A program made the position numbers and the translations under genes. Of a DNA stretch of 9,724 bases, positions 2,244 to 9,714 are shown piece by piece. Source of the DNA: an uncultured Acidobacteriota bacterium (GTDB taxonomy: Bacteria; Acidobacteriota; Thermoanaerobaculia; Gp7-AA8); NCBI GenBank assembly GCA_946887105.1, contig CAMPKJ010000186.1:1-9724 (forward strand), in the 5' to 3' direction. The stretch's first letter is position 1. The number at the start of each line of letters is the position of its first letter. The notes beneath the pieces are model-generated. The model was not told the origin of the DNA, did not search any database, and worked only from the letters and a program-made list of their open reading frames with translations.

Positions 2244-2354
2244 CGTTGGGCGTTAGGCGTTGGGCGTTCGGGAGTTTTCGCTCGAGCGCCAGGTAACGCT
2301 TGCGACGACTGGCCCGCTGTGCGCAGACTCCCGAACGCCCAACGCCTAACGCCC
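2244..2354. repeat. Long inverted repeat made of 7-base tandem units (hairpin A), between convergent genes
   Basis: The left side (2244-2271) is four tandem heptamers, CGTTGGG, CGTTAGG, CGTTGGG and CGTTCGG. Bases 2248-2274 have a perfect 27-base inverted copy at 2328-2354, across a 53-base spacer (2275-2327) that itself contains a small GCCAG/CTGGC stem (2288-2292 with 2309-2313). The element starts right after the apt stop, and the right arm runs over the last bases of the convergent gene on the other strand, including its TAG. A 27-bp G+C-rich stem would be a strong block to transcription in both directions, although it lacks the U-run of a standard intrinsic terminator. Two similar elements of different sequence lie at 6148-6235 and 9626-9714. 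Confidence 0.9.
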
Positions 2355-2585
2355 TTCGCGCAAGCGAAGTCGCACCAGCGGCGACTCCCCCGTCACGTGC
2401 ACGCCGGGCGTGAGCTCGAAGGCGTCCTCGGTGGTCTGCACGCCCCCGAGGAGCAGGCAGAGGCGCGCCAGCTCCTTGAAGGAGGCCTGATCGGCTTCGA
2501 CGATCACTTCCCCACCCTCGACGCGGACGCTCATCGGTGCGCGCGACAATCCTTCGAGCGCCATCATGGCCAGGTCGTAGTTCAT
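2346..2585 (-). CDS. Small conserved-looking protein, function unknown (possible Imm32-like fold)
   Basis: This 79-residue gene starts on the base after the TAG of the pterin synthase gene (TAGATG), with a strong ribosome binding site (GGAGAGGA, 2593-2600 on this strand) within that gene, so the two are translated together. The predicted order is a short helix, a strand (SVRVEGGEVIVEA, about 19-31), a helix (SFKELARLCLLLGG, about 35-48) and strands near the C-terminus around a His-x-Thr in GVHVTGESPLVRLRL. This strand-helix-strand plan, with a leucine-rich helix and a late His, loosely recalls the Imm32 family, but I cannot confirm this and claim no function. The last three bases lie within the right arm of hairpin A. 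Confidence 0.72.
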   Translation of the reverse strand: MNYDLAMMALEGLSRAPMSVRVEGGEVIVEADQASFKELARLCLLLGGVQTTEDAFELTPGVHVTGESPLVRLRLREGR

Positions 2586-2996
2586 CTACTCGTCCTCTCC
2601 GCGGTATCGCACGGAATTGCGCTCGGTCTCTTCGAGCACGACCTCGTACAGCTCGCCACTCGGAATGGAATTCGCCAGCTGAGCCCAGAACGCGCGCGCC
2701 AGATTCTCGGCCGTGGGGATGACGTCCTTCAGAAAATCGACGTCCTCGTTGAGGTTCGTGTGATCGACCCGATCGATGACGCGCTCGCGCATGATGTCCT
2801 TGAGGCGCTTCAGGTCGATGACCATCCCGGTCTCGGGATCGATGCGCCCTTTCACGCTCACTTCCAGCGCGTAGTTATGGCCGTGGCCGCGCGGGTTGTC
2901 GCATTTCGCGTACGTGCGGCGGTTCCATTCCGCATCCCGGTTCGGATTGTGCAATCGGTGAGCTGCCGAGAACGTCAGTCGTGCCGTAACGATCAT
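2586..2996 (-). CDS. 6-pyruvoyl-tetrahydropterin synthase / 6-carboxytetrahydropterin synthase family, PTPS-type motif
   Basis: COG0720 enzyme acting on 7,8-dihydroneopterin triphosphate. In the 136-residue reading from ATG 2996, the zinc ligands are His13 (FSAAHRL), His38 and His40 (GHGHNY), the catalytic Cys is Cys32, the Asp-His pair is 78-79 (DHTNLN), and the pterin-binding Glu is at about 123 (EETERN). The motif is Cys-x5-His-Gly-His, as in animal PTPS (its CNNPNGHGHNY segment), whereas QueD usually has Cys-x3-His-Gly-His. The DPETGMVIDL segment and the LYEV-ET stretch also resemble the animal enzyme. No queC, queE or folE is visible here, so I give no symbol: it could make 6-pyruvoyl-tetrahydropterin, or act as QueD. 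A TTG at 3005 would add three residues; neither start has a ribosome binding site. Confidence 0.9.
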   Translation of the reverse strand: MIVTARLTFSAAHRLHNPNRDAEWNRRTYAKCDNPRGHGHNYALEVSVKGRIDPETGMVIDLKRLKDIMRERVIDRVDHTNLNEDVDFLKDVIPTAENLARAFWAQLANSIPSGELYEVVLEETERNSVRYRGEDE

Positions 2997-3004
2997 CGCG
3001 CGCA

Positions 3005-3010
3005 ATTATG
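3005..3010 (-). promoter_or_regulatory. Candidate -10 box (CATAAT) before the pterin synthase gene
   Basis: Read on the minus strand, CATAAT (five of six consensus bases) ends eight bases before ATG 2996. No -35 match is apparent. It sits within the 11-base gap and first codon of the divergent gene at 3008, so if real the two genes' promoters and coding starts overlap. Confidence 0.3.
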
Positions 3011-3316
3011 GACGCAAACGAACCGCTCTACATGCCCTGCCGGAATGGCACGTTCATCCTTCCGGACAGCATCTTCCGCGCGCTCGAAGCGCTCACGAAC
3101 GGCTTCGTCTACCTGCGCCAGGACGACGACACGCTCACCATCTCCACGACCAGCCTGCCCGGCGGACACCGGCGGCCGTTGAACGCGCGCGTGCGCGTGC
3201 AGATGTTCCGCAACGCCACGCGCCTGGGCATCGTCGATCTGCGCGAGTCGATCCGGGTGATGGCCATCAGCGCACTTGTGCCAGTGCCGTCCGGATCTCC
3301 GCCTGCTGTTCGATGA
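3008..3316 (+). CDS. Small protein of unknown function, convergently overlapping the pseudokinase gene
   Basis: I do not recognise this 102-residue product. It reads as a genuine protein: strands alternate with one helix (NGTFILPDSIFRALEALTNG, about 13-32), then FVYLRQDDDTLTIST (33-47), and a conserved-looking block MFRNATRLGIVDLRESIRVM (66-85). The beta-rich layout with a short helix after FILP loosely resembles AbrB/MraZ-type proteins, but I would not assign it. It starts 11 bases from the divergent pterin synthase start and has no ribosome binding site. Its last 50 bases (3267-3316) are antisense to the end of the pseudokinase gene; that part codes for a low-complexity tail (residues from about 87) and may be an unselected extension. 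Confidence 0.68.
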   Translation: MDANEPLYMPCRNGTFILPDSIFRALEALTNGFVYLRQDDDTLTISTTSLPGGHRRPLNARVRVQMFRNATRLGIVDLRESIRVMAISALVPVPSGSPPAVR

Positions 3317-9232: not shown

Positions 9233-9249
9233 TGGCGTTGCAAAGAACC

Positions 9250-9543
9250 TTACTTCGAAGCGGGCTGCGCCGGGGCGGCCGGAGCGGGAGTGCCGCTCAG
9301 GACCGAGCCGCGCGGACGGGCCTGCAGGATTGCGAGAGACATCGAGGTGATGACGAACGCGACGAAGAAGCCGGTCGTCAGCTTGTGCAGGAGCGTCGTC
9401 GCGCCGCGCGCGCCGAATGCTGTCTGCGAGCCACCGCCACCAAACGCCCCCGCCAGATCCGCGCCCTTGCCCTGCTGGACGAGGACCACGAGGATCAGAA
9501 AAAGGCTGATGATGACGTGCAAAATCACAAGTAGGACGATCAT
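9250..9543 (-). CDS. secG: Protein-export membrane protein SecG
   Basis: SecG is the small, non-essential subunit of the SecYEG translocon that supports SecA-driven export. The 97-residue product has the family plan: first membrane helix about 3-22, the conserved LVQQGKGADLAGAFGGGGSQTAFG loop (about 21-44), second membrane helix about 57-75, and an Ala/Pro-rich C-terminal tail of about 18 residues. The Lys-Gly and Gly-rich loop features are the usual signature. ATG 9543 has a GGAG ribosome binding site six bases upstream and a good promoter at 9586-9614. It is followed at 17 bases by tRNA-Leu(GAG), the same neighbour as in Escherichia coli (secG-leuU). Confidence 0.95.
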   Translation of the reverse strand: MIVLLVILHVIISLFLILVVLVQQGKGADLAGAFGGGGSQTAFGARGATTLLHKLTTGFFVAFVITSMSLAILQARPRGSVLSGTPAPAAPAQPASK

Positions 9544-9585
9544 GGAATCTCCGGTGCGCTGACCCGAAACGGGACAGGGACGCGA

Positions 9586-9614
9586 ATTCTTCCCGGAAAC
9601 GGACGCGGCGTCAA
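9586..9614 (-). promoter_or_regulatory. Sigma-70-type promoter of secG-tRNA-Leu
   Basis: On the minus strand, TTGACG (-35, 9609-9614; five of six consensus bases) and AAGAAT (-10, 9586-9591; four of six) are separated by the optimal 17 bases. Transcription would start near 9579, giving a leader of about 36 bases with a GGAG ribosome site. It lies between secG and hairpin C, which would block read-through from upstream. Confidence 0.6.
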
Positions 9615-9625
9615 CCCCCCCGGAA

Positions 9626-9714
9626 GTCGCAGAGTCTCAAAGTCGCAAAGTCTCAAAGAAAAGGCCGCGGGAGACGCCGCCCTTTGAGACTTTGCGACTT
9701 TGCGACTTTGCGAC
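9626..9714. repeat. Inverted repeat made of 8-base tandem units (hairpin C)
   Basis: The left arm (9626-9658) is four octamers, GTCGCAGA, GTCTCAAA, GTCGCAAA and GTCTCAAA, plus G. The right arm (9682-9714) is the inverted array; read in complement it is GTCGCAAA three times, then GTCTCAAA and G. The 33-base arms match at 31 positions. The spacer (9659-9681, 23 bases) is G+C-rich. The rest of 9544-9724 holds only the secG promoter and leader. Lying upstream of the secG -35, hairpin C probably ends or insulates a transcript from beyond the window's right edge. Confidence 0.88.

Follow-up and report, generated by a model that had tools for sequence, protein, structure and literature searches.

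REPINs and BIMEs are dispersed intergenic palindromes that occur at high copy number in lineage-specific families. Repetitive extragenic palindromic (REP) sequences with a terminal GTAG or CGTC tag have stems of mostly 6-9 bp, and the GTAG families are tied to RAYT genes, according to the accessible part of one study (PMC3733652, 2013). In Xanthomonas, arrays of the heptamer GGGAATC, with one variable letter and mostly of four units, are dispersed and 89-93% intergenic (PMC4692102, 2015). In the available excerpts of that paper, the arrays lie on average 28 nt from the 5' neighbour and 160 nt from the next gene, 16% of them fall between convergent genes, the 186 arrays of Xcc include 70 convergent pairs and the 183 of Xac include 75, and the element, for which one word is described, is read as a G-quadruplex. 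Direct repeats of the single heptamer TAACTGA form 169 intergenic sets in the Beggiatoaceae, with a single inverted case in the available portion of the article (PMC4679880, 2015). A survey of 118,019 genomes (PMC13155455, 2026, partial text) covered perfect inverted repeats that lie near stop codons and have loops of 0-8 bp, and a REP survey with three Acidobacteriota among its genomes does not use the word 'tandem' in its main text, as far as that text is accessible (PMC12306157). Here we describe three hairpins, A, B and C, whose arms are inverted tandem arrays of short words, in a 9,724-nt stretch of DNA (the window; contig CAMPKJ010000186.1 of assembly GCA_946887105.1) from an uncultured Acidobacteriota bacterium, together with hairpins of the same plan in its relatives.

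With a probability of about 0.65, hairpins A, B and C belong to one class of small non-coding elements. Each element would consist of two inverted arms of some 25-31 bp, in which a 7- or 8-letter word is repeated three to four times, round a mostly unique loop. On the same reading, intergenic gaps acquire and lose each hairpin as a unit, frequently at a site shortly after the stop codon of the upstream gene, and slippage alters the arms. The place of the elements in the genome would resemble that of REPs or BIMEs, in that they would be tolerated without serving as dedicated terminators.

Three hairpins in the window

The window was scanned with a detector that requires an array of period 7-10 and an inverted partner within 130 bases. 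It returned exactly the three elements below, whereas 400 dinucleotide-shuffled copies of the window, 3.89 Mb in all, yielded no such hairpin. This bears out the original prediction, made from the letters of the window, of three inverted tandem-word hairpins built on one plan. Shuffled loci totalling 4.46 Mb likewise contained no periodic hairpin when scanned with a separate detector.

2239..2354, hairpin A: heptad TTAGGCG/TTGGGCG, about four units per arm; arms 2248-2281 and 2321-2354; loop of about 39-51 nt
6146..6236, hairpin B: word GTTCCTCGG, in units of 8-10; arms about 6146-6184 and about 6196-6236; short loop
9622..9718, hairpin C: octad AAGTCGCA/AAGTCTCA; arms 9622-9658 and 9682-9718; 23-nt loop

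The inverted arms measure 34 nt in A, about 40 nt in B and 37 nt in C, and their complementarity is 94% in A and 92% in C. Predicted plus-strand RNA folding energies were -83.1, -65.2 and -69.1 kcal/mol for A, B and C respectively, with z-scores of -10.9, -7.0 and -11.4, and none of 200 shuffles folded as well. At the Rfam gathering threshold a tRNA was the sole match in the window, and the three hairpins matched no RNA family.

Words, strands and loops in related genomes

The class-level counts were taken from relatives, in the Acidobacteriota and also the Gemmatimonadota, rather than from the window's own genome; we infer that the window's three hairpins behave like the elements of these relatives. 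Genomes and loci are given by our own G and L numbers. In a first look at 80 related loci, 8 contained hairpins of this kind, not counting an AT-rich one. Among genomes of the window's order, G067 held 64 elements in 376 kb, G001 31 in 287 kb, G002 30 in 460 kb and G384 12 in 400 kb, while the Gemmatimonadota genome G026 held 22 in 140 kb. Densities are inflated in G001, G002 and part of the G067, G026, G398, G012, G011 and G022 stretches, because these were picked near word matches. Contig C75 of G067 and the G384 stretches were picked for a conserved gene, not for words, and C75, from the densest relative, carries 26 elements in 200 kb, or about one per 8 kb. The case that had been named as refuting a shared mechanism, a genome that shows just three such hairpins, was looked at in the relatives, which contain many. 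In a mixed set of 75 loci, 6 of the 25 scored elements (in L031 and L032) are AT-rich, of low complexity and look false; these six were left in the per-genome element counts and in the strand and loop counts where their period fits.

Periods of 7 and 8 are preferred among arrays that have an inverted partner. In ten genomes a partner was found for 184 of 240 arrays of period 7, for 98 of 176 of period 8 and for 32 of the 600 with periods 9-12. A large number of the arrays with other periods sit inside genes; among intergenic arrays counted separately, 231 of 306 arrays of periods 7-8 had a partner versus 26 of 108 of other periods. The proposed link between tandem arrays and inversion thus holds, above all for periods 7-8. 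Median mean-arm length was 31 bp, equal to 4.4 units, for heptad elements (n = 102) and 25 bp, equal to 3.1 units, for octad elements (n = 63), and the median loop was 18.5 nt, sizes that are bounded by the detector through its minimum arm and its reach of 130 bases. The whole element had a median of about 75 bp in the gap comparisons described below. The two arms were unequal by at least 1.5 units in 33 of 119 elements. Large non-periodic hairpins with arms of 42-75 nt also look alike by eye across G002 and G384 (L002:4979-5166, L002:10008-10135, L093:1184-1309 and L167/L168/L174, at G384 C4:44679, 73150 and 186469), and these may be further dispersed families.

Several words are kept per lineage in the relatives, each of them spread over many loci. 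In a search that allowed at most one mismatch and counted overlapping matches, (GTCGGGN)3 matched 355 times in G001, 438 times in G002, once in G003 and not at all in G004 or G005, and the reversed pattern gave 0 matches. Likewise (CACAGAGN)3 gave 1601 matches in G026, with 52 for the reversed pattern. At least nine words were recognised by reading in G067 (GAGTNCT, GTTCCTCGG, GGTTNCGC, GGTCACCNG, CAGACCN, AATTGAA, GTAGCGG, GGCTCTT and GGGACCTAT). The second of these, the word of hairpin B, forms many hairpins there, and among 100 genomes drawn from the class it was matched in G067 alone (12 matches). The word of hairpin C, as CGCAAAGT, stands in hairpin arms of L141 (G216) and L142/L260 (G063), and is not a wide family, being found in 3 of 347 genomes. 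CACAGAGR is common to Acidobacteriota and Gemmatimonadota loci. One design carried by many unrelated words, as had been predicted, is what the relatives contain. The accompanying suggestion that such hairpins are made de novo from local short words turned out mostly wrong, since words recur at many unlinked loci, the word of hairpin B being a family in G067, and loops match their flanks hardly above shuffled sequence.

The 5' arm is G-rich. Among 207 elements G exceeded C in the 5' arm of 176, C exceeded G in 25 and 6 were tied; counted by word (46 words, partly related and so not independent), the figures were 33, 5 and 8. Non-periodic hairpins of the same genomes showed a weaker bias (62, 28 and 7; n = 97). 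In the window, A obeys the rule, and B and C are tied. Because an inverted pair reads the same on both strands, the bias suggests that some step works on single strands, whether of DNA or of RNA.

Long loops in G067 are mostly single-copy. When 16 of them (28-92 nt; 40 of 74 candidates scored) were compared with the 4.9-Mb genome at E 0.01, 15 matched themselves alone and the remaining one matched a dispersed repeat, perhaps a nested insertion. Among 1,275 loop-loop pairs in G067, 5 were alike versus 3 after shuffling. Compared with their own flanks, loops had a mean best local score of 7.55 versus 7.23 when shuffled, and reached a score of at least 11 in 6 versus 3 of 119 cases. Two sources of the loop gain little from these data: local sequence, which gave no clear signal over shuffled, and copying from elsewhere in the genome, seen in 1 of the 16 long loops in addition to a few shared loops.

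Orthologous gaps and genomic position

Genes were called with a simple purpose-made caller and orthologous neighbours were paired, giving 1,179 directed gap comparisons. An element was present on one side and absent from the other in 51 directed comparisons, from 17 element gaps. At short gaps it is the whole hairpin that is present in one species and absent in another. Where the empty gap was 40 bp or less (30 comparisons, 14 gaps), median lengths were 102 bp with the element, 19 bp without it and 75 bp for the element itself, and the median excess over the whole element, loop included, was +1 bp (+3 bp per gap). Counting the arms without the loop left +33 bp over at these short gaps (21 comparisons), and this count speaks against the idea that the loop is old intergenic sequence. 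Some elements lie between same-strand genes whose gap in relatives is 4-19 bp.

One gap was read base by base. It is 116-136 bp long with a hairpin in G067 and 27-49 bp long, element-free, in G080, G384, G320, G381, G380 and G004. The hairpin of G067 (GAGTCCT) stands before a TACACT box, that of G003 (GAACGAT, with a long loop) stands after the box, and G383 has a word nearly identical to that of G067, one letter apart. The TACACT box is common to seven genomes in this gap (L256 near 17340; L263, L264, L266-L269) and is perhaps a promoter element.

The orthologue also carried an element in 16 of 67 directed comparisons of element gaps versus 51 of 1,112 of other gaps; pairs were counted from both sides, which makes the p-value of this difference too small. 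A comparison of units between orthologous gaps had been proposed as a check, and in the relatives it came out divided: 6 of 8 element-element pairs at one orthologous gap had different words (three of the pairs coming from one gap), and the other two had the same or nearly the same word (CGGGNGT shared by G001 and G289; G067 and G383 one letter apart). The gap between the kinase and biotin-carrier genes, the site of hairpin B, holds hairpins of one common word in G001 and G289 and hairpins of other sequence, partly non-periodic, in G002, G320 and G377; none was scored there in G003, G004, G005, G067, G379 or G384. The finding of different words at one gap helps the view that differences in presence and absence are probably gains rather than losses.

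We placed 184 elements with respect to genes: 155 lie in gaps (99 tandem, 29 divergent and 27 convergent), 24 fall within called genes and 5 are at edges. Background gaps of at least 60 bp were divided in much the same way (tandem 520, divergent 187 and convergent 149 of 856), and no gap orientation was preferred (p 0.62). Enrichment at gene ends, which had been put forward as a further check, was not seen at convergent gaps (27/155 versus 149/856), although elements in tandem gaps do favour the upstream stop codon, 75 of 99 being nearer to it than to the next start (medians of 6 nt after the stop and 28 nt to the start). A T-run followed the stem in 19 of 184 elements versus 6 of 184 control positions. 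The proposal that such hairpins may be kept as terminators or insulators thus gains little from their positions. We read this as elements being tolerated best just behind stop codons, and not as dedicated terminators; single ones may still terminate.

All three hairpins of the window had also been placed at likely transcript ends. This is plain for A, which lies between two convergent genes, its array beginning within the stop codon of apt and its right arm spanning the other stop. It is not so for the others, as B lies 3' of the DinB gene yet also just upstream of the kinase gene, and C precedes secG, its second neighbour being beyond the window edge. The features concerned are as follows.

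1709..2242, + strand: phosphoribosyltransferase gene (apt-like); the tandem array of hairpin A starts in its stop codon
2346..2585, - strand: small hypothetical gene, convergent to apt; its stop codon is within the right arm of hairpin A
3267..6128, - strand: serine/threonine kinase gene; start about 18 nt from hairpin B
6240..6746, - strand: DinB-family gene; stop adjoins hairpin B
9151-9232: tRNA (Rfam match)
9250..9543, - strand: secG; hairpin C is upstream of its start, not 3' of its stop

The window also contains acylphosphatase, PTPS, biotin-carrier and biotin-carboxylase genes, and a gene that we take to be pcm-like. Its biotin carboxylase is closest to Acidobacteriota (76-80% in L001-L005 and 85% in G384), and a biotin carboxylase fragment in G383 reaches 89% against the window. 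A small gene at 3008-3316, on the opposite strand, overlaps the 3' end of the kinase gene, and related genes occupy the corresponding place in G384 and G379. The DinB-family gene (6240-6746) stands between the biotin carrier and the kinase, a place where it was not found in the relatives compared; G383 has a DinB-like gene beside secG.

Possible origins and relation to known systems

A number of observations weigh against the reading of a class of whole hairpins that come and go. Over all 51 comparisons the median excess was -11 bp (-30.5 bp per element gap, 17 gaps), the element-free gaps in the remaining 21 comparisons were 80-690 bp long, and among 368 control comparisons, which were element-free and had a short orthologue, 27% differed by at least 50 bp. 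Given the overall median and this control, the clean signal rests on the short gaps. No elements were found with the first detector in G080 (32 kb sampled) or G012 (51 kb sampled), and the word of hairpin A occurs at scattered places in 6 of 100 genomes, none of them scored as a hairpin. Not every loop is unique: a pair from G067 has 27 nt in common, a pair from G001 agrees at 82% across 88 nt, and some G002 loops match in part; in the G026 family, whose arms are nearly identical, the 6-8-nt loops look partly alike. Shared loops imply that some families may copy as whole units. Arm variants of one element agreed above shuffled in three of five families (0.47 versus 0.31 by the outside count, the inside count not being significant; 0.54 versus 0.33; and 0.71 versus 0.43, for three genomes taken together); copying of one arm from the other would fit this agreement as well. 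Ku was not found in G265 and G378, both of which have matching hairpins, and no writing enzyme was pinned down among the Y1_Tnp, RVT_1 and Ku profiles.

Dispersed intergenic palindromes in many copies, near stop codons, are what a Y1 (RAYT-like) transposase might be expected to leave if it moved whole hairpins, the elements then being REPs or REPINs with swollen arms. Y1_Tnp was matched in 18 of 20 genomes searched, with 14 matches in G067 and 15 in G289, and it was not matched in G384, where density is low but where elements nevertheless occur. We read 19 Y1 genes, of which 18 had two usable 0.7-kb flanks (L289 was too short). The longest word common to both flanks was a tandem word in 0 of 18 and was mostly another palindrome, L277 included. 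This gene, from G026, is the sole Y1 gene read with tandem-word hairpins, of CACAGAG, on both sides (435-499 and 1192-1238), and single heptad arrays stand on one side of L271, L287 and L289. The flanks of L271-L274, L283, L284 and L286 (G067, G001, G289 and G378) share long words, mostly palindromic, several of which contain GTAG or CTAC. Near the arm ends of the elements GTAG was found in 14 of 184 (control 5) and CGTC in 4 of 184 (control 25), and neither tag marks the elements. Direct repeats in the flanks, sought with element ends known to a few bases as the target-site duplications of a MITE or IS-derived element, were no longer than at random positions. The alike arms and short loops in G026 and the loops shared elsewhere would suit transposition, the mostly single-copy long loops of G067 would not, and we regard it as unlikely. 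RAYT REPs were set aside as the source, Y1_Tnp being common but the flanks of the Y1 genes read sharing other words, and on this point the original prediction, that the hairpins are not a dispersed REP-type element, stands.

Selection for terminators or insulators, by which a gap in need of a strong hairpin acquires one of any word, is in our judgement slightly less likely again. Stems of 25-31 bp, the closeness of tandem-gap elements to the upstream stop, the more frequent elements in orthologues of element gaps and the T-runs above control agree with it, but elements are also found in divergent gaps and between same-strand genes that are almost adjacent in relatives, and selection alone cannot place one word at hundreds of loci. 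Intrinsic terminators were rejected as the origin, as convergent gaps are not preferred and T-runs are few. If slippage and template switching built each hairpin in place out of short words nearby, this would account for three words in one 9.7-kb window, for arms of one element that are alike beyond their family in three of the five families tested and for arms of unequal length. Such an origin is improbable in view of the same word at many unlinked loci, the loops unrelated to their flanks and several element-free orthologous gaps of just 4-30 bp. Least probable by far is a telomerase-like reverse transcriptase that writes words from an RNA template, as reported for DRT10, an antiviral system said in the accessible part of a preprint to write tandem repeats (PMC12632851). 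A G-rich word, tandem arrays and a G-rich strand at the inferred 3' ends are as it would require, but several words per genome would need several templates, and only 9 of 18 genomes gave an RVT_1 match, which was missing from element-rich G001 and from G003, G004, G380, G383, G384, G105, G265 and G378, an absence that is weak since the genomes are drafts. Words spread genome-wide together with long loops that are mostly single-copy are hard to square with transposition, local slippage or terminator selection taken alone.

For the class of whole hairpins preferred here, we tentatively suggest that the arms are written by repair synthesis from an existing array and joined by filler. Where DNA breaks or a fork stalls, the two 3' ends would each take a copy of the G-rich strand from a word array that is already present, the repair synthesis would thus write both arms, the filler that joins the ends would become the loop, new each time, and the arrays would slip afterwards. 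Such a geometry of two copying 3' ends would give inverted arrays, a G-rich 5' arm and a new loop per event. Ku, found in 16 of 18 genomes, allows end joining without proving it and is too common to serve as a marker; matches number three to four per genome in G384, G067, G003, G105 and G320. A process not yet described in bacteria, dedicated or opportunistic, that would add a G-rich word of 7-8 letters, copied from a shared source, to the two 3' ends of a break within a gap is a long shot. If true, it would be a bacterial analogue of fusing two telomere-like ends, with a one-off loop per event, and the word written would differ by lineage with several in use at once. Orthologous gaps with and without an element can be set side by side, which makes the mechanism testable in cultured relatives.

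The class is recognisable by rule and not by sequence, and family-by-family repeat searches would therefore split it. Like tagged REPs, REPINs and BIMEs, these elements are dispersed intergenic palindromes beside genes, in high copy and in lineage-specific families. They differ from tagged REPs in having untagged tandem-word stems of 25-31 bp and long loops that are mostly unique, and their tandem words are not the flank word of the RAYT-like genes sampled. The TAACTGA repeats of Beggiatoaceae are likewise intergenic heptamer arrays, but direct rather than inverted in the available portion of that article (PMC4679880). The survey of perfect inverted repeats (PMC13155455) also has hairpins near stop codons; tandem-word arms and long loops are not treated in its accessible text.

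In the open-access literature nothing closer than the Xanthomonas case was found for the class or its words, and six of the words were found in no paper. On the available excerpts (PMC4692102), the Xanthomonas pairs share with hairpin A and with the elements of the relatives the inverted arrays of one heptamer, close together and of about four units, whereas hairpins B and C have units of 8-10. Runs of GGG as needed for a G-quadruplex are present in some words (CGGGNGT, and TTGGGCG of hairpin A) and absent from most. The 83% of shared positions given for Xanthomonas concerns two close species and is not comparable with the more distant relatives used here. The single-word Xanthomonas case is already known; what is new is the many words, several per genome and octads among them, two further phyla, the rules that the elements follow, and the evidence from loops and from presence and absence. 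The Xanthomonas heptamer pairs look like one family of the present class, and they thereby gain a wider frame.

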